A stretch of DNA of 36,334 nt, taken from Candidatus Methanoperedens sp. GTDB lineage: Archaea; Halobacteriota; Methanosarcinia; Methanosarcinales; Methanoperedenaceae. This document shows, piece after piece, positions 18,823-28,490 of this stretch; positions within the stretch are counted from its first letter, which is position 1, and every line of letters begins with the position of its first letter. The stretch is taken from NCBI GenBank assembly GCA_021409285.1, contig JAGFND010000011.1:1-36334 (forward strand), given 5' to 3'. The notes under the pieces are model-generated. The model was not told where the DNA came from, ran no database searches, and saw only the letters and a program-made list of their open reading frames with translations. Made by a program: the position numbers and the translations under genes.

Positions 18823-19320
18823 TTATTTCATCCCAAACTTCTCAAACCTTTCCTTCTTTGCCCTGCAAATCGGACAAAGATCAGGCGGCTCTTCCCTTGC
18901 ACACAAATATCCACACACTGTGCACCTGTAAACTTCAGCCATATCTTTATCTCCTGCTCCTTTTTGTTCCATAATACCCGGATAACCTTTCTCAAAATAT
19001 TCCTGCGGTCGCCGCTCTGGTATCGGGTCATGTGTTTTCTTGCCCGCGATCCAGTCATCGTCAACATACAGCGTACATAAACAGCATCCGTATTCCACAA
19101 GATCAGCATCCCTGTAATTGCAGGGGCATATGATGTCCATATCATCTGCAATCACACCGCTTGCGATCCTGCATGGGCACGAACCATAGCCATACCTGTG
19201 CATGTTATCCCAGAGCCCCTGAAGTATATCGTCCAGATCCTCCTGGACAGGATTAAACTGGTAGCCCTCCTCCTCAGCGATCTTTTTCATCTCCTCAAAC
19301 ATGCCTTCAACTGTTCTCAT
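18823..19320 (-). CDS. Ferredoxin:thioredoxin reductase catalytic chain fused to rubredoxin
   Basis: 165 residues. The first part is an FTR catalytic beta chain with C48-P-C50, C65-P-C67 and C80-L-C82, the six cysteines that hold a 4Fe-4S cluster next to a redox-active disulfide. An extra Cys79 precedes the last pair. The C-terminal part (about 126-165: VYRCTVCGYLC...CPICRAKK) is a rubredoxin-type iron site. The protein would pass electrons from ferredoxin or rubredoxin to a disulfide substrate, perhaps the glutaredoxin-like protein encoded just upstream with a four-base overlap. It is the last gene of the McrC/Por operon. Confidence 0.93.
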   Translation of the reverse strand: MRTVEGMFEEMKKIAEEEGYQFNPVQEDLDDILQGLWDNMHRYGYGSCPCRIASGVIADDMDIICPCNYRDADLVEYGCCLCTLYVDDDWIAGKKTHDPIPERRPQEYFEKGYPGIMEQKGAGDKDMAEVYRCTVCGYLCAREEPPDLCPICRAKKERFEKFGMK

Positions 19321-19571
19321 AATCCAAGCGCCGCCCTTATCTTATCCTCGTAAAATCCCACGATCACAGTATCGCCGATAACTATTGTCGGGAACCTGAC
19401 CGTACCGCTCAACCTTATCATCTCAGAACGAACATCCTCTTTTTCCCTGCCTTCCAGTTTGTCCACATCGATGAAATCATATATTATCCCCTGTGATTTG
19501 AAAAAGCGTTTCGTTGCCTTACAATGCACGCACGTGCTCAGGGTATAGAGCATGGGTCTTGCTTTATTCAT
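19317..19571 (-). CDS. Glutaredoxin-like thiol-disulfide protein
   Basis: 84 residues with thioredoxin fold and a CVHC active site (STCVHCKATKRFF), the cis-proline segment VRFPTIVIGD and the closing VGFYEDKI. It overlaps porB by four bases upstream and the FTR gene by four bases downstream, so its product is probably the electron acceptor or partner of that reductase. In-frame Met7 (19553) is an alternative start that would give a more compact N-terminus. Confidence 0.93.
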   Translation of the reverse strand: MNKARPMLYTLSTCVHCKATKRFFKSQGIIYDFIDVDKLEGREKEDVRSEMIRLSGTVRFPTIVIGDTVIVGFYEDKIRAALGL

Positions 19572-20530
19572 GGCCCGTGCATCTCCCTGTGTTCTTCGGT
19601 GATTCCGTGATGCTCTTCGGGCTGCACGATCTCACAAATATCAGGCTCGCCCTTTTCCTTATAATGCAGGTTCCATTTCTTGCAAACCCACATCTGTAAT
19701 ATCTTTATGTCTTCTTCGCTCATGTGCCTGAACCTTCCCTGCATTAATAAATAATCCTTTACCGATTTCATTTTCCCCGGCTTATAAGTGATCTTTTTTT
19801 TACCATTCTCAAATTCATAAAGTGTCCACATACCGCTTTCGACCGCGCGTTTTGTGATCTCCACGCTTTTCGCAGGATCTATCTTCCATCCAGGCACGCA
19901 TGGAGTGAACATATGAAGAAAACGAAAACCTTTTATATTTTTTGCTTTTTCCACTTTCCTTATGAAATCAAGAGGGTGACCTATCGACAGAGTCGCATAA
20001 TAAGGAATTTCATGTGCCGTCACGATATCGCCAAGATTCTTCTTAAAGCGCCTGTTCCCCTGTATCTTTTTACCAACTGGCGTCGTTGTTGTCCACGCCC
20101 CGAATGGAGTTCCTCCGCTTCGCTGGATGCCTGTATTCATGTAAGCCTCATTGTCAAGACAAATATAAAGCACATCGTCATTTCGCTCAGCAGCTCCTGA
20201 CATGCTCTGAAGTCCAATGTCATATGTCCCTCCGTCACCGGCAAATCCTGCTGATATGACATGCTTTCCTTTTATTTCAAAGGCTGCCTGCATTCCCGTT
20301 AGACACGCACCGGTATTCTCAAATGCTGTGTGAAAGAACGGAACTTTCCATGCTCCATACGGAAATGTGGTACCAAACACCACGGCGCAGCTTGCAGGGA
20401 CATATACCACTGTATCCTTCCCAAGTACCCTGATAGCATTCCTTATCGACATCGCAACACCGCATCCCGGACATGCAGTATGTCCTGCGGTAAATAGATT
20501 TTCATCAGAAAGTGTCTTTATAGTTATCAT
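19568..20530 (-). CDS. porB: Pyruvate:ferredoxin oxidoreductase, beta subunit
   Basis: 320 residues from ATG 20530, one base after the porA stop; a GGGGAG ribosome binding site lies in the end of porA. The frame is open to 20584, but that part overlaps porA. The beta subunit binds thiamine diphosphate and one 4Fe-4S cluster: ACPGCG, the GDGG motif (AGFAGDGGTYDIG) and the NEAYMNTGIQRSGGTPFGA segment are present. It catalyses oxidation of pyruvate to acetyl-CoA with reduction of ferredoxin, or the reverse carboxylation. Confidence 0.95.
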   Translation of the reverse strand: MITIKTLSDENLFTAGHTACPGCGVAMSIRNAIRVLGKDTVVYVPASCAVVFGTTFPYGAWKVPFFHTAFENTGACLTGMQAAFEIKGKHVISAGFAGDGGTYDIGLQSMSGAAERNDDVLYICLDNEAYMNTGIQRSGGTPFGAWTTTTPVGKKIQGNRRFKKNLGDIVTAHEIPYYATLSIGHPLDFIRKVEKAKNIKGFRFLHMFTPCVPGWKIDPAKSVEITKRAVESGMWTLYEFENGKKKITYKPGKMKSVKDYLLMQGRFRHMSEEDIKILQMWVCKKWNLHYKEKGEPDICEIVQPEEHHGITEEHREMHGP

Positions 20531-20531
20531 A

Positions 20532-21704
20532 TCAAACGCTTTCTCCCCTGGTATTATGCCAGTTAATGGTATTGACTTTTTCACCTTTTGCCGCTTTTTG
20601 CGTGATCTCGAACATTTTCCTGATCTGATCTTCTGTCACATCTCTTCCACCGATACCTGCAAGATGATTGACAGCGGTTATGTTCATTCCATAAAGAGCA
20701 GAGCGAACCTCCATAAATGTCGGCCCTCCACCGTGGTATGATATCGATCGGTCAAATACACCCACTGCGCTTATACCCGCCAGAGCTTTCCTTAATTCCT
20801 CGATCGGGAACGGCCTGAAGAACCTGAGTTTGACAAGTCCGACCTTTTTACCTTTATTTCTCAATTCATCCACGATCGCTCGTGATGTGCTTGTCACGGT
20901 TCCTGTCGTAACTAATGCAATTTCTGCATCATCCATTCGGTATATATCTATGAGGCCGCCATAATTCCTATCAAATGTTTTTGCGAATTCATCGTTGATT
21001 TCCATGACCACATGTTTCGCTGATTCGACTGCTCCTGCTGTCTGCCTGCGAAGTTCCATGATGTATTCAGCAGGCATGAACGTCCCGATCATCGCTGGCT
21101 TAACAGGATCAAGCATAATGTCCGGTGAAAATGACGGAAGGAAGGAATCCACATCCTCCTGCTCCGGGATATCGACAGGTTCAACAGTATGGGTCAACAC
21201 AAAACCATCCAGACATGGCATAATCGGAAGCATGACGCGTTTATCCTCTGCTATCCTGTATCCCTGGATTACCATATCCAGAGCTTCCTGGTTATCTTCT
21301 ACATAAACCTGAAGCCAGCCAGAGTCACGCACGCCCATGGAATCGTTATGCTCACACCAGATGCCTGGGGGACCTCCCAGCGTTCTATTTGCATTTACCA
21401 TTACAACAGGGAGACGAAGCGGCGCTGTAGCATAGACCATCTCGTGCATGAATGCAAGGCCCTGCGAGGATGTCGCCGTGAAAACCCGTGCTCCTGCGGC
21501 TGAAGCAGCAGCCGCTGCGCTCATAACGCTATGCTCTGATTCCATCGTGAGGAACTTTGCATTCATCTCCCCATCATTAATAAGATCGGCGATATGCTCG
21601 ATAATAAGTGTCTGCGGCGTGATCGGAAATGCAGGTATAACTTCAGCCCGCGAAAGTTTTGCTCCAATGGCAACAGCATGATCGCCCATCATTACTTTCT
21701 TCAT
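20532..21704 (-). CDS. porA: Pyruvate:ferredoxin oxidoreductase, alpha subunit
   Basis: 390 residues, full length. Family features include [49 protein letters not shown] and [19 protein letters not shown]. The set of residues around [16 protein letters not shown] fits pyruvate synthase rather than 2-oxoglutarate or branched-chain enzymes, though substrate is not proven. It overlaps the gamma-delta gene by four bases. Confidence 0.95.
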
Positions 21705-22600
21705 ACCCGGCCCCTTACCATTTTTATTGCATCAACAGGGCACTCATTTTCACAAACCCCACAGCCCTTGCAATAATCATAATTTGTCATCAGGTCTCCC
21801 CTATCTGAGATACGAACGATCGTTCCTTCGGGGCAGTAGAACCAGCATAAAAGGCACATGGTGCACTTTGCCTTATCGCGCACTGGCCTGAAAGTCGCCC
21901 ATCCTGAAACCTTATTCTCAATAAAACTACCGGGTCCGATAAGGCCTGCTTCAGTTCTGCCTTCGATAAGCGCGCCGCCAACAGGCAGTTCCTGATAGCT
22001 CGGAAGCCACTGCTTTTTTGTCTCAAGCTTTTTTATACCTTTGCTTATTCCGATAACGGTTTTTTCATATGCAATCCTTGCAGCAAGGGCATTCCTTTCT
22101 CCCACTCTTGCACCAAGTCTCTCTCCAAATCTCGTCTTGACAGCCTCTTCAATAGATTCAATTTTGACGATCCCTGTAACCCTTGCCAGAGCGCCGAGAA
22201 TGGCTGTATTTGTGATCGGTGCTTTTAGGATCTCAAGCGCCACAGATGTCGCGTCTATCGCTCCTGTTCGCAGTTCTTTTCCAAGATCTATTTCATCGGG
22301 CTCTTCTTTTGAATTGATGACCACTGATCCTTCAGGTTTTATCCCGGAAACAACATCTATTGTATCCAGAAGCGAATCATCAAGAACAACAACGCAATCA
22401 GGCACATATACCTGTGTTTTACTGAATATCTTTTTTGAATCTATCCTTGCAAAAGCAAGAACGGGAGCTCCTCTTCTTTCAGCGCCGAAAAAAGGAAAAG
22501 CAACGGCATAGTTTCCCTCAATTACAGCAGCTTCAGCAAGTGTCTGGGCGGCCATAACAGCTCCCTGGCCGCCACGACCGTGAAAACGTAACTCGAACAT
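21701..22600 (-). CDS. porG: Pyruvate:ferredoxin oxidoreductase, fused gamma-delta subunit
   Basis: 299 residues. The gamma domain (1 to about 180) begins [20 protein letters not shown], with [12 protein letters not shown] and the [10 protein letters not shown] strand. A linker leads to a delta ferredoxin domain (about 215-299) with two 4Fe-4S motifs, [14 protein letters not shown] and [16 protein letters not shown]. In many methanogens porG and porD are separate genes; here they are joined in one frame. The subunit carries CoA-binding and electron-exit functions of the complex. Confidence 0.94.
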
Positions 22601-22615
22601 GGCTATTTGTCTCTT

Positions 22616-22837
22616 TTATTCACAGGAGCCAGGTAATAAGATATTACCGCAATCACGGCAGACAAATCTCGGAAGACCTTTCTTGAGCATCCTGACTGGC
22701 GCAGGATAATTTCCTTCCCATATCGGGATATCGACCCGTTTTGCATGATCCATACACAGGCCCATGCCGCACATTATGCAAATAGCAACAGCCTCTTCAT
22801 CAGACCCACTTTCTGAACATTGATAACATTTTAACAT
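22616..22837 (-). CDS. DUF2180 zinc-ribbon-like protein (copy 2)
   Basis: 73 residues from ATG 22837, two bases after the stop of the first copy. Cysteine pairs CYQC, CIMCGMGLC and CRDCG with a conserved MDHA match DUF2180, a small methanogen-associated family of unknown role. The cysteine pattern suggests zinc or iron binding. It differs from copy 1 in the C-terminal pair (CRDC here, CQPC there). The longer frame to 22879 would overlap copy 1 and is not preferred. Confidence 0.8.
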   Translation of the reverse strand: MLKCYQCSESGSDEEAVAICIMCGMGLCMDHAKRVDIPIWEGNYPAPVRMLKKGLPRFVCRDCGNILLPGSCE

Positions 22838-22839
22838 AA

Positions 22840-23052
22840 TCACCAGTTCTCCTTCAGTGCCTCGTGACATGGCTGGCACAGAATACGCATAACGTTCTCA
22901 ATATCCTTTTCAAGCCTTGCAGGATAATCACCCTTCCAGATAGGTGTGGCTTCCCTGATAGCATGATCCATACACACACCCATTCCACAGACGATGCATA
23001 CAGCCACTGCGTCTGTATCCTTCCCTTTTTTTGCGCATAAATAACATTTCAA
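22840..23052 (-). CDS. DUF2180 zinc-ribbon-like protein (copy 1)
   Basis: 70 residues with CYLC, CIVCGMGVCMDHA and CQPC, clearly homologous to the next gene (shared pattern G-x-x-x-D/E-A-V-A-x-C-I-x-C-G-M-G-x-C-M-D-H-A). It starts five bases after mcrC. Function is unknown; its position suggests a partner of McrC or of the oxidoreductase. Confidence 0.83.
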   Translation of the reverse strand: MKCYLCAKKGKDTDAVAVCIVCGMGVCMDHAIREATPIWKGDYPARLEKDIENVMRILCQPCHEALKENW

Positions 23053-23057
23053 TTAAT

Positions 23058-23741
23058 TCACTCTCCTTCAGATGACATAAGGCCTTCATTGATCAAAAGA
23101 TCGCTCCTTACCGCATGTGTTGCTTCGGTCTTTTCACCCAGGATATGTCTTATTTCTTTGACCAGTTCATTGAGATTCCCTCTTGAGCAGGTCTCACCCC
23201 TTGTTATACCACTTACGATTCCCACTATGGTCCCTTCAGTTTCAGGATTTTTGGGTCTTATATATTTTGTCTTTATACCCGCTTTAGCAAAATCCTCAAA
23301 ATCTATGGGATATTCGCAGGCTATCACAGCAGGTATATTGACATATTTAAGGATTTTCTTGGCTTTCAATACGATATGTGAATTGACGTTTCCCATATGC
23401 ATTAAAACCAGTTTATGCCTTGCTATCTGTTCTATTTCCTTTGCCGTAAGACCAAACGATGCTCCATAACCTTTTGAAGATGTTGTGGACCCGACTTCAT
23501 CCATAGGGACACCAGCCCCGGCTTCAAGAACAAGAACACTTACCTGTATCCCTTCTCTCCTGAGACCGTAGGTTATTTCGCACACAGGTTTTGTGATATG
23601 CCGCCTGCCCGGGGTCATCGCAATTGCGACGACATCGGGTCTTGCGGCCTCTGAAAGGGTTCCACGCTGGGCTATTCCGCCTCCGCGGCCAAGACCCATC
23701 GCTTCCCTGCAATCAACTAATTGTGTGTCCCTTCCGATCAT
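23058..23741 (-). CDS. mcrC: McrC, methyl-coenzyme M reductase operon protein C
   Basis: 227 residues from ATG 23741, which overlaps the ferritin-like stop (ATGA) and has AGGA just before it. Recognised by VDCREAMGLGRGGGIAQRG, TLSEAARPDVVAIAMTPG, RRHITKPVCEITYGLR, LMHMGNVNSHIVLKAKKI and DFEDFAKAGIKTKYIRP. McrC is part of the ATP-dependent complex that reductively activates the nickel cofactor F430 of methyl-coenzyme M reductase. It is usually found within the mcrBDCGA operon; here it stands among redox genes with no MCR structural gene in the window. It could be the only copy or a second one. Confidence 0.92.
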   Translation of the reverse strand: MIGRDTQLVDCREAMGLGRGGGIAQRGTLSEAARPDVVAIAMTPGRRHITKPVCEITYGLRREGIQVSVLVLEAGAGVPMDEVGSTTSSKGYGASFGLTAKEIEQIARHKLVLMHMGNVNSHIVLKAKKILKYVNIPAVIACEYPIDFEDFAKAGIKTKYIRPKNPETEGTIVGIVSGITRGETCSRGNLNELVKEIRHILGEKTEATHAVRSDLLINEGLMSSEGE

Positions 23742-24157
23742 TTCCTGATACCAAGCGTGGTTTCCCATGTATCTGCATGGCCTTCCTCATCAGAGAGAAT
23801 CTCTTCGAGCATGAGCCTTGTAGTTGGGTCGCCCTCTTCTATTGCAAGTTTTATATGCTCTTTATACTGTTTGATCGCCCCATTCTCTTTTGCGAGGTCG
23901 TCCTGGATCATCTTCTTAAGATCGCCGCCTTCTATTATCGGTTCAGGCTTCTTTGAGGGCACACCGCCAAGATAAACGATCCTCTCGCCGAGTTTCTCGG
24001 CATGTTTCATCTCGTCTTTTGCAGTTGATTTAAAAATCTCAAGAACTGCCGGGCTTTCCATGCCTTCCCCTTCATAATGATGTTTCATATACTGTACTAT
24101 CGCTGCTAATTCTGCTTCTCTGTCTTTGTTCAATGCATCAATTATTTTCTGACTCAT
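23738..24157 (-). CDS. Ferritin-like di-iron protein (bacterioferritin type)
   Basis: 139 residues of four-helix-bundle sequence. Metal ligands follow the ferritin-like pattern: Glu in REAELAAIVQY, the E-x-x-H of KDEMKHAEKL, Glu in AKENGAIKQY and the E-x-x-H of LSDEEGHADTW. It could store iron or reduce oxygen/peroxide; no rubredoxin domain is attached. It overlaps mcrC by four bases, so the two are made together. MCR activation is extremely oxygen-sensitive, so a protective role is plausible but inferred. Confidence 0.88.
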   Translation of the reverse strand: MSQKIIDALNKDREAELAAIVQYMKHHYEGEGMESPAVLEIFKSTAKDEMKHAEKLGERIVYLGGVPSKKPEPIIEGGDLKKMIQDDLAKENGAIKQYKEHIKLAIEEGDPTTRLMLEEILSDEEGHADTWETTLGIRK

Positions 24158-24198
24158 AGTTTTCTCCTTTTTATAATCTCATTATTCTTAATCATCTA

Positions 24199-24591
24199 TT
24201 ACTTTCTTCTGCCAGCCATGCAACCATGGCCGCCTTGCCCTTCTTCGCCCTGCAATAATTGTAAGGCTCTCTTGCATGATGCCACGCCCGGCGCTCCAGA
24301 GGTAATGAAAACCACGTTCATTGTTTCCATAATCTCTTCTTTTGTAGCTCCGTGGTTCAAAGCGCTCCTCATCTGGGATTCGCAGCAAGGTTCACACCTC
24401 TGCGCAGCCATCACAGCAAGCGACATCAATACTTTTACCTTTGCAGGAAGAGCACCGTCCTCCTGAATATGATCATCGCATTTTTTATAATGTTCAAACA
24501 ATTCCGGATTCATTTCACCCATCATGTTCATGATCTCAGGCGTAAAACCCATTTTACCATCTATGCTTTTGATAACTTTATCTGGTTCCAT
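24199..24591 (-). CDS. AhpD/carboxymuconolactone decarboxylase-like protein
   Basis: 130 residues. The active-site segment [24 protein letters not shown] contains C66-x-x-C69 and His80, the CxxC and His of AhpD-type peroxidase reductants. A third adjacent Cys70 and a C-terminal tail rich in Gly/His/Cys ([11 protein letters not shown]) may bind metal. A GGAG ribosome binding site precedes the ATG. It is the first clear gene of the long redox operon, 41 bases ahead of the ferritin-like gene. Confidence 0.9.
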
Positions 24592-24670
24592 ATTTTCTCT
24601 TTTCTCCTATAATACGATTGTTAATCAATGAATTAATACTTTTCCCGCTCTATTTCTTTTTATGTTTCTC

Positions 24671-24959: not shown

Positions 24960-25580
24960 TTGGGAAATGGAACAATAAAACTCTTTGGTATTTCAGGGAG
25001 CCCCCGAAAAGCTTCCACAGACCATATCGTAAATGAGGCTTTGCATTATGCTTTTTTGAAATATCATGTTGAAACCGAATATTTTTCGGCAATGGGAAAG
25101 AATATCAATTTCTGCATTCATTGCGATTACTGCATTAAAAACAAAAAGGGCTGCATTCACAAGGACGACATGCAATTTGTCTATGAAAAAATGAAATGGG
25201 CTGATGCACTAATAATTGGAACACCGGTATATCAGGGTATGGTGAGCGGCCAGACAAAAACCATAATGGACAGATGCAGGGCTATCGCAGCATCTGATCC
25301 GAATTTTATCTTGAATAAACCTGCAGCTGCGATGGCTGTTGGTGGCGACCGCATCGGAGGTCAGGAACCTTCGATCCAGGCTATACACAATTTCTATGTC
25401 ATAAATGAGGCGATCCCTGTGGGGGGAGGCTCATTCGGGGCAAATCTTGGGGGTGCCTTCTGGTCGCAGGACAGGGGCGCAGAAGGAGCAAGTGAGGATG
25501 AAGAAGGTCTAAAGAGTATGCGAAAGACCGTGAACAGATTAATGAAACTGGTTTTGATGATGAAGAAAAATGAACTCTGA
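24960..25580 (+). CDS. isf: Iron-sulfur flavoprotein (Isf family)
   Basis: 206 residues from a TTG start; no in-frame ATG lies nearby and GGTGA precedes it. Flavodoxin-like FMN phosphate loop GISGSPRKAST. A compact cluster motif at Cys52, Cys55, Cys58 and Cys65 (CIHCDYCIKNKKGC) is the hallmark of archaeal Isf, which binds FMN and a 4Fe-4S cluster and takes electrons from ferredoxin. GTPVYQGMVSGQTKTIMDR is the second flavin contact. The next gene encodes AfpA; Isf and AfpA are adjacent and act in one electron chain in Archaeoglobus. Confidence 0.9.
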   Translation: MGNGTIKLFGISGSPRKASTDHIVNEALHYAFLKYHVETEYFSAMGKNINFCIHCDYCIKNKKGCIHKDDMQFVYEKMKWADALIIGTPVYQGMVSGQTKTIMDRCRAIAASDPNFILNKPAAAMAVGGDRIGGQEPSIQAIHNFYVINEAIPVGGGSFGANLGGAFWSQDRGAEGASEDEEGLKSMRKTVNRLMKLVLMMKKNEL

Positions 25581-25594
25581 ATCGGGTTAAGAAA

Positions 25595-26152
25595 ATGACT
25601 CTAAGAATCGCATGGGGAATTACAGGTTGCGGCGACTATCTGAAAGAAAGCATTGAGATAATGGAAGAACTCACAAAAGATCATGATCTTGAGGTAAGGG
25701 TTTTCCTTTCACAGGCTGGGGAGATGGTCGTAAAATGGTATAAACTTTATACAAATCTGAAGACGAGTTTCCCTAAAACATATAGCGAAAGGTCGCCCAA
25801 CGTCCCTTTTCTGGCGGGTGATCTACAGATCGGGAAATATGATTTCATGCTTATCATGCCATCGACCTCAAATACAGTCGGCAAGATCGCTGCAGGAATA
25901 TCTGATACCCTGCTGTCAAATGCAGCGGCTCAGGCCATGAAGGCTAAAGTGAAGGTGTATATTTTTCCAGCAGACCAGAGACCGGGAGATATCGTAACGG
26001 ATCTGCCCGGTGGGAAAAAGCTCACGCTCACGATGAGGGATGTGGACATAGAGGCCGTTGATAAATTAAGGAAAATGTCAGGGATCACTATTCTCTCGCA
26101 TCCGAATGAGATCCGCGAGATAATAGAAAAACATATCAAGAGCGGAAAATAG
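25595..26152 (+). CDS. afpA: Archaeoflavoprotein AfpA / DmrB-like flavoprotein
   Basis: 185 residues of flavoprotein fold. ITGCGDYLKES at the N-terminus, LIMPSTSNTVGKIAAGISDTL and SNAAAQAMKAKVKVYIFPAD are typical of AfpA and of the dihydromethanopterin reductase DmrB. AfpA accepts electrons from ferredoxin and reduces Isf; DmrB instead completes tetrahydromethanopterin synthesis. Close coupling to isf (14-base gap) favours AfpA. It is transcribed away from the McrC/Por operon. Confidence 0.85.
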   Translation: MTLRIAWGITGCGDYLKESIEIMEELTKDHDLEVRVFLSQAGEMVVKWYKLYTNLKTSFPKTYSERSPNVPFLAGDLQIGKYDFMLIMPSTSNTVGKIAAGISDTLLSNAAAQAMKAKVKVYIFPADQRPGDIVTDLPGGKKLTLTMRDVDIEAVDKLRKMSGITILSHPNEIREIIEKHIKSGK

Positions 26153-27140: not shown

Positions 27141-28490
27141 GTGACCGACAGCTTTAACATGAAAATACTATTGATTTGTGCAATTATTGCAATTGCTGCT
27201 GCATTGATATCCCCAATGCAAATCTCAGCCCGGTCTGAAAAGATTCCGAAAAATCCTGAAATCTCAAAAATGAGCACGGAAATGAACGCCTTCGCCGATG
27301 TAAATGTAGAACCTGAGGGATATTGTTTCTTCATTATCAGAAACTGAAAAAGAGATTATTTTTGAATCCAATCTTAAATATGAAAAGACTAATCAAGAAA
27401 TGATCCAGGAAATTCTAACCAATACCAAAATAATGATTTTAATGTTTCCATAAATGTTTCGAATCTGGGAGCTATATCAGCTCATAATGTAAATCTTACT
27501 TTGTCTATGCCATCTGGATTTACAATTATTTCAGGTTCAAATTTCTATAGTCTGGGAAGTATATCTGCTGGAAACCTGAAAAATGTCTCTCTGACGATAT
27601 GTTCACCATCTGCAGAGGGAAATATTGACTCTACATCACTTTTTATGATCGCAAATCCCACTCGCTATGAGTCTTTATTCAGTGCCGCAAAGAACGGAAG
27701 CAAAATTGCTGTTAATGCAACGATTTTCGATGCAGTTTCAGGTATTAAAAACGCCACATTTGATGCAACGGGTTGCTCGGCCTTATGCCATGCAGGGGAA
27801 AATGCAGACGTCAAAGCCTTTGGCAATAAATATACTCCAAATACAGGTGAGATGGCAGACCTCTGGCATATGAAGATGGTGCGAACAAACCCGACAGGTT
27901 ATATGGACGACCAGTATGTGGACTGCATGGATTACAGCAAAGATATGCCAGATGCCGGGAGGCGCTCAGATCCCGGAGGCAGCCCATACTCTGACAACAT
28001 CAACGCCGCCAAGACAGCTCCAAATTATACCTCGGCAGACCAGCCCGCACCGCCATACTGGATATTTGATGAGCAGAAGCAGCTATTCAATGATACATAC
28101 AAGACTAACGATGAGATAGCGGGCATTATTGTAATGCCTCCGACAGGGGATAGGGCGGACATAATGGGTAAGGCTGTCTATAAGGACGGCATCTGGACGC
28201 TTGAATATGGCAGGAAGATGAACACCGGAAGCAAGTACGATGTTCAGTTCACAGATATGAATAAGGAATACTCATTCGGGACAGCAATATTCGATAATGC
28301 CCAGACCAGGCACATCTATGAGACTGACGTGAGCAAGCTGGTTTTTGCTGCGCAAGCCACCCCAACACCAACTTCCACCCCAGCACCAATTTCAACTCCA
28401 ACTCCGGTAGCAACAAAGAACACACCAGCTTTTGAAGCGCTACTGGCTATTTCAGCGCTGTTTGCAGCAGTACTGGTCAAAAGAAGGTAA
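27141..28490 (+). pseudogene. Frameshifted EB_dh-type haem-binding surface protein
   Basis: A single gene split by two compensating indels: frame A at 27141-27317, frame B at 27319-27431, then frame A again to 28490. The GTG start has AGGAG eight bases ahead. Order: signal peptide (MKILLICAIIAIAAALISP), a CARDB-like beta domain (FNVSINVSNLGAISAHNVN), then an ethylbenzene-dehydrogenase-like haem domain (ADLWHMKMVRTNPTGYMDDQ). A haem-like motif CSALCH (C-x3-C-H) precedes that domain. The end is a Pro/Thr-rich spacer and TPAFEALLAISALFAAVLVKRR-like PGF-CTERM anchor. In the intact form it would be an extracellular, membrane-anchored haem protein. The indels could be assembly errors. Confidence 0.7.

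Follow-up and report, generated by a model that had tools for sequence, protein, structure and literature searches.

The stretch of DNA considered here (hereafter the window) comprises 36,334 nucleotides of Candidatus Methanoperedens sp., family Methanoperedenaceae, and corresponds to positions 1 to 36,334 of contig JAGFND010000011.1 (GCA_021409285.1). On its minus strand, from 24591 to 18823, ten intact open reading frames lie in the same direction and encode, in this order, an AhpD-like protein, a mini-bacterioferritin (mBfr), McrC, two DUF2180 proteins (a and b), PorGD, PorA and PorB of a 2-oxoacid:ferredoxin oxidoreductase, a glutaredoxin and an FTR-rubredoxin protein. The families of all ten products were confirmed by hidden Markov model searches, and the strand, families and order are those claimed in the initial annotation of the window.

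The reading frames are closely packed. ATGA overlaps join ftn/mcrC (mcrC start 23741), porGD/porA (21704), porB/grx (19571) and grx/FTR (19320), and gaps of 5, 5, 15 and 1 nt separate mcrC/DUF2180a, DUF2180a/b, DUF2180b/porGD and porA/porB (porB start 20530), leaving the 41 nt between ahpD and ftn as the single longer gap, all as described before. Small corrections concern mcrC (23768), DUF2180b and porB, which have alternative longer upstream starts; for mcrC the shorter start is favored because the upstream-extended translation runs into a stop codon in several relatives. A promoter-like block (24616..24646, minus strand), A-rich and then ATTAAT, resembling a B recognition element and TATA box, lies 25 nt ahead of ahpD and presumably serves as the promoter. 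Across an alignment of 26 family members, the basal Kmv03 and HGW-1 among them, it is the clearest conserved stretch within about 300 nt upstream.

Identity of McrC

The third gene (23058..23741, minus strand) codes for McrC, a subunit of the ATP-driven activation complex of methyl-coenzyme M reductase (MCR). The product scores 298.7 bits with the McrC equivalog model TIGR03264 (curated cut-off 213.5) and aligns to the McrC chain of PDB 8s7v. The FeS ligands C12, H49, C55 and H118, taken from the solved activation complex of Methanococcus maripaludis (PMC12176620, PDB 8s7v), correspond to C20, H57, C63 and H131 of the window protein, numbered from the upstream start at 23768, and are invariant. 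Another, stronger match to PF04609 in the same genome (contig C79, 399 bits) was considered as a second McrC and rejected; it is Mmp7 (TIGR03274, 407.8 bits), and the window copy is therefore the sole McrC of the genome, in which a single mcrB indicates one MCR. Viral contigs were searched for McrC and gave none.

Judged by its score and its intact ligands, McrC is genuine here, as was initially proposed. A divergent paralogue with another job than MCR activation is highly improbable: Methanoperedens McrC does end in some 25-35 extra residues of conserved sequence (window 23058-23150, minus strand), absent from the aligned McrC of the anaerobic methanotrophic (ANME) groups 2a/2c and of Methanosarcinaceae, but no other McrC is present in these genomes, and the protein passes the equivalog cut-off with all four ligands in place.

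Conservation of the cluster

The mcrC gene was located in relatives and its surroundings were retrieved where possible; named GTDB genomes were scanned as well, in a set that overlaps the same-genus one. In 23 of 23 same-genus genomes mcrC lies inside the cluster in the same gene order, with small exceptions, and the named scan yielded 26 Methanoperedenaceae loci with the cluster, among them the two basal members, which are without the ferritin gene only. Synteny is thus not limited to this one contig. In about 20 same-genus genomes the 4-nt overlaps are mostly kept along with the order, those at porGD/porA/porB/grx/FTR recurring in most.

The type genome of Ca. M. nitroreducens (L046/L109) is without porGD-A-B; its glutaredoxin gene begins a few nucleotides past the DUF2180b stop codon, and mcrC and the rest are kept. 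One genome (G011), whose contig is short, has neither DUF2180 gene, another (G010) no recognizable DUF2180b, and in three genomes FTR is displaced by 151-918 nt. A quick FastTree phylogeny of the concatenated operon proteins, computed without support values and leaving out locus L114, nests M. nitroreducens inside lineages that carry Por, so that its loss of Por looks secondary.

Among the relatives compared, synonymous divergence from the window (dS) is mostly 1.2 to >3, which is saturated or nearly so, and nonsynonymous divergence (dN) is about 0.05-0.27. The two-component and flavoprotein genes that flank the cluster in the window are not beside it in other same-genus genomes. With order and overlaps kept at saturated dS while the flanks differ, the arrangement is, on the evidence of these comparisons, more than chance. 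As shown by comparison of the loci, the putative ancestral core comprised ahpD, mcrC, two DUF2180 genes, porGD-A-B, grx and fdr, with the mini-bacterioferritin found in the genus and not in the two basal members.

Location of mcrC in other lineages

Outside the family, 54 named loci and 34 further regions have mcrC without the cluster around it, lineage labels being taken from the named loci when these were available and inferred in the other cases. No Por, FTR, DUF2180 or glutaredoxin gene stands beside mcrC in the non-family loci examined; a few of them have weak AhpD-like matches kilobases off, and two ANME-2 loci have partial PorGD matches, likewise kilobases off, on the opposite strand. 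The ANME-2a/2c, Methanosarcinaceae and Methanocella loci have mcrC inside mcrBDCGA. It is unlinked from the mcr operon in Methanothrix, ANME-1 and two or three other lineages, and precedes a phosphoglycerate mutase gene in several Methanothrix. In five ANME-1 loci two A2-like ATPase genes stand next to each other and mcrC comes immediately after them.

Five genus genomes examined have mcrBDGA without mcrC (on contig C112 in the window's genome), and an A2-Mmp3-Mmp6-Mmp15-Mmp17-Mmp7 cluster lies on C79 of the window's genome, apart from the operon. Going by these gene positions, the genus keeps mcrBDGA and A2-Mmp3-6-15-17-7 elsewhere and only mcrC has moved. McrC acts in trans (PMC9584954), so that a location in mcrBDCGA is not a defining feature of the protein. 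For Ca. M. nitroreducens, mcrC (ANME2D_00875) has already been noted to lie apart from the mcr operon, in a passage that leaves its neighborhood unmentioned (PMC9081873).

Oxygen- and iron-related proteins

The AhpD-like protein (24199..24591, minus strand like all genes of the cluster) belongs to the CMD family (PF02627, 59.5 bits). Its C66, C69 and C70 are invariant in 26 members, and Q73 occurs also in Methanosarcinaceae homologues. The CxxC motif is kept, and the position that we take to be that of the AhpD relay histidine is Gln in all members aligned, so that peroxidase activity is not to be assumed.

The ferritin-like protein (23738..24157) matches PDB 9qq4 with 254.8 bits, keeps R13 and M50 (coproheme), and is a short chain (139 aa) with the Met50 haem ligand that goes with the definition of a mini-bacterioferritin (PMC13168243). 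The operon copy of strain BLZ2 is identical in 139/139 residues to 9qq4, that is, to Mper-mBfr, a coproheme mini-bacterioferritin that was natively purified and is the most abundant ferritin of the BLZ2 culture (PMC13168243).

DUF2180 proteins a (22840..23052; PF09947, 114 bits) and b (22616..22834; 103 bits) follow mcrC. DUF2180a is Cys/His-rich and zinc-finger-like, with C3, C19, C22, C27, H30, C59 and C62 invariant and C6 nearly so; its AlphaFold2 model (pLDDT 89) gave no significant match in the PDB. Relatives that have DUF2180 genes usually have them as a tandem pair. In Methanosarcinaceae clusters the pair is followed by the same AhpD subfamily and by FMN reductase and flavoprotein homologues, with rubrerythrin in the one locus scanned for it. 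By gene content, not gene by gene, we equate these clusters with MA4664/MA3734-3743 of Methanosarcina acetivorans. The latter have been published as a putative oxidative-stress operon (Lessner and Ferry 2007, as cited in PMC3729527). The Methanoperedens cluster contains the DUF2180 pair and AhpD, while FprA and rubrerythrin are absent.

One ANME-2a genome has the DUF2180 pair together with FTR, rubredoxin, FprA-like and ferritin-like proteins; in an ANME-2a locus (L074, 10400-10970) FTR and rubredoxin are encoded by two genes of their own, just ahead of the pair. The neighbors of the pair in another ANME-2a genome are unrelated (S-layer, PEP-utilizing enzyme), and the association of DUF2180 with defence is thus frequent, not universal. 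The protection against oxygen and iron proposed earlier fits these observations, the ferritin being the solved mBfr and AhpD, DUF2180 and FTR occurring in oxygen-defence clusters elsewhere.

In the window, FMN-reductase-like and flavoprotein genes, divergent from the operon, occupy 24960-26152 (plus strand). This pair also stands beside the operon in Kmv03 and HGW-1, though in no other same-genus genome, and it occurs in the Methanosarcinaceae DUF2180 clusters. Further away, the product of 27501-28490 (plus strand) has a haem domain of the ethylbenzene-dehydrogenase type (PF09459, 84 bits).

The Por paralogue

PorGD (21701..22600) is a fusion of the gamma and delta subunits, or PorC and PorD, of a 2-oxoacid:ferredoxin oxidoreductase (TIGR02175, 223.7 bits; TIGR02179, 94.3 bits), and its eight 4Fe-4S cysteines are invariant in 27 sequences. 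The alpha subunit PorA (20532..21704) reaches 488 bits with NF040682, below the cut-off of 550, and the beta (thiamine pyrophosphate) subunit PorB (19568..20530), with its cluster cysteines conserved, 381 bits with PRK11865, below the cut-off of 405. PorA and PorB thus stay under the equivalog cut-offs for archaeal pyruvate synthase, and only the subfamily models PorC_KorC and PorD_KorD are passed. Second PorAs of ANME-2a, ANME-2c and one Methanosarcinaceae genome group with the operon PorA in a supported clade (100/97), some of the joins involving long branches, apart from canonical PorA, of which the two copies examined group with the solved 9bt4. A canonical PorA over the cut-off is also present in every genus genome listed except one (G018). 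The operon PorA keeps the Thr of the PITP motif, where oxalate oxidoreductase has Arg, and the substrate Arg (PITPQT and NANR, versus PIRPYT of 5c4i). An identity as oxalate oxidoreductase was considered and is not supported, as the Thr is kept and the branch is long and separate. In four ANME-2a genomes the Por cluster with this second PorA stands beside an ArsR/V4R (MsvR-type) regulator.

The initial annotation had read Por as a dedicated electron feed to MCR activation. Por would oxidize pyruvate or another 2-oxoacid and reduce ferredoxin, from which electrons would pass to the clusters of McrC and Mmp7 and on to F430, with FTR and glutaredoxin repairing the thiols of the complex. The paralogue indeed differs from the housekeeping enzyme, for which there are separate genes; it has all its cofactor ligands intact and is co-located with mcrC in a conserved manner, and the structural study of the activation complex brings up ferredoxin as a candidate physiological donor (PMC12176620). 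We nevertheless regard such a line as distinctly unlikely, since Por is cleanly missing from the operon of the M. nitroreducens lineage with no replacement of that type, ANME-2a/2c carry the same Por clade apart from mcrC, the remaining genes of the activation complex lie elsewhere, and methanogens activate MCR without such a linkage.

Glutaredoxin and FTR-rubredoxin

The glutaredoxin (19317..19571) is NrdH/YruB-like with a CVHC motif (PF00462, 57.8 bits), of which C14 and C17 are invariant in 26 sequences. The last gene (18823..19320) encodes an FTR catalytic chain (FeThRed_B) fused to rubredoxin, of the ferredoxin:disulfide reductase type, with a full-length match of 150 bits to PDB 4tpu; its six FTR cysteines (CPC...CPC...CxC) and the four of rubredoxin are all invariant, as expected for that type. 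In the protein 7pwe the same FTR domain is preceded by a glutaredoxin-like one; we take 4tpu to be from M. acetivorans and 7pwe from Clostridium. A ferredoxin:disulfide reductase of this type reduces a thioredoxin in M. acetivorans (PMC6262447). Two genus genomes have extra glutaredoxin-FTR gene pairs elsewhere, and one of them (L243) also has an extra FTR-rubredoxin that is 81% identical. Selenocysteine at an in-frame TGA in extra FTR copies was rejected in the one read closely, where the TGA is a stop codon before a separate rubredoxin frame.

Six of 16 same-genus genomes examined, the window's among them, have no PF02943 match besides the operon FTR-rubredoxin. Class III ribonucleotide reductase, which also needs a thiol donor, is present in nearly all of the 16, again including the window's. 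FTR-rubredoxin can therefore not be called dedicated to MCR, contrary to the thiol and electron system first proposed. These counts would also suit a housekeeping low-potential redox operon, whose Por, FTR-rubredoxin and glutaredoxin, with ferredoxin, would provide class III ribonucleotide reductase and protein disulfides in general with thiols, and in which mcrC landed by chance and stayed for constitutive expression. A ferredoxin disulfide reductase reportedly serves the class III enzyme in Methanosarcina barkeri, a case ascribed to Wei et al. 2015; relocation of mcrC is not rare either, as Methanothrix and ANME-1 demonstrate, and mBfr is abundant in normal growth (PMC13168243). Such an origin is unlikely, though to be taken seriously, given that mcrC is retained tightly across the family at saturated dS with the same 5' partners (ahpD, then DUF2180) and that these partners are akin to the defence clusters of relatives.

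Interpretation

On balance, the cluster is probably a conserved redox-defence and repair operon of Methanoperedenaceae that adopted mcrC, the proposed link between them being co-expression. This reading draws on the family-wide retention of mcrC with conserved overlaps while the flanks differ, and on DUF2180, AhpD and FTR/rubredoxin belonging to the defence clusters of relatives. The most economical account would be the capture of mcrC and of a Por paralogue by a redox-defence cluster in the family ancestor. Some observations weigh against it. No redox-regulator site was found; the MsvR box (TTCGN6-10CGAA) is absent upstream of the operon. The rank of mBfr as the most abundant BLZ2 ferritin applies to steady nitrate-dependent growth, which argues for constitutive, not stress-only, expression, and an mBfr homologue is down-regulated under salt stress (PMC13168243).

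Under redox defence with co-expressed mcrC, oxidation would drop MCR into Ni(II)/Ni(III) states. The mini-bacterioferritin would take up Fe(II) and contribute its reactivity with O2 and peroxide, the CxxC AhpD-like and DUF2180 proteins would be tied to oxygen defence, the 2-oxoacid:ferredoxin oxidoreductase would make low-potential ferredoxin, and FTR-rubredoxin and glutaredoxin would use it to reduce disulfides. McrC would bind clusters of the [8Fe-9S-C] type, through which electrons reach F430. The operon might in this way supply fresh McrC together with reducing and iron-sequestering proteins, so that the activation complex could be rebuilt and F430 returned to Ni(I); Por need not hand electrons directly to McrC. 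A purpose-built system for MCR re-activation, in which Por is the dedicated electron source and FTR-rubredoxin, glutaredoxin and DUF2180 act directly on McrC and Mmp7 for a restart after exposure to oxygen or nitrogen oxides, appears improbable. Of the initial proposal, then, the genuine McrC and the conserved linkage stand and the protection against oxygen and iron fits; Por as a dedicated feed for MCR is not supported in the form proposed.

The setting of mcrC in the cluster suggests, short of proof, a tie between MCR re-activation and redox stress in archaea whose surroundings contain nitrate, nitrite, metals and, at times, oxygen. If the genes are co-regulated, re-activation would be part of the redox-stress response of these methane oxidizers. 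In the search for the physiological electron donor of MCR activation, and for its control, the operon offers a short list of testable partners; the linkage makes a specific hypothesis of MCR re-activation testable and gives the recently solved mini-bacterioferritin a genomic context.

Comparison with known systems

A search of the literature, covering open-licence papers, found no description of this linkage between mcrC and a redox cluster. The operon thus seems to combine known parts in an apparently undescribed, family-conserved linkage, the separateness of mcrC itself having been published already. The main text of the Mper-mBfr paper (PMC13168243) is without mention of the operon or McrC, although the BLZ2 operon copy is the solved protein and the window copy retains the same coproheme residues.

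The putative M. acetivorans oxidative-stress operon, as matched by content, resembles the cluster in its DUF2180 pair and AhpD-like subfamily and also has FMN reductase, rubrerythrin and flavoproteins, whereas mcrC, Por and a mini-bacterioferritin are lacking in the Methanosarcinaceae clusters examined. ANME-1 likewise has mcrC outside the mcr operon, but there it comes directly after A2 genes, and many of the genomes have DUF5402 and U32-peptidase-like genes farther upstream. The ferredoxin:disulfide reductase systems (4tpu, M. barkeri, 7pwe) share the FTR-rubredoxin architecture and cysteines, and the glutaredoxin immediately upstream recalls 7pwe; here, in contrast, they stand in one operon with mcrC and Por. 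With the activation complex of M. maripaludis the window's genome has in common a McrC above the family cut-off with all four cluster ligands, as well as genes for A2, Mmp3, Mmp7 and Mmp17; it differs in that mcrC lies outside the mcr operon and inside what is probably a redox-defence operon.

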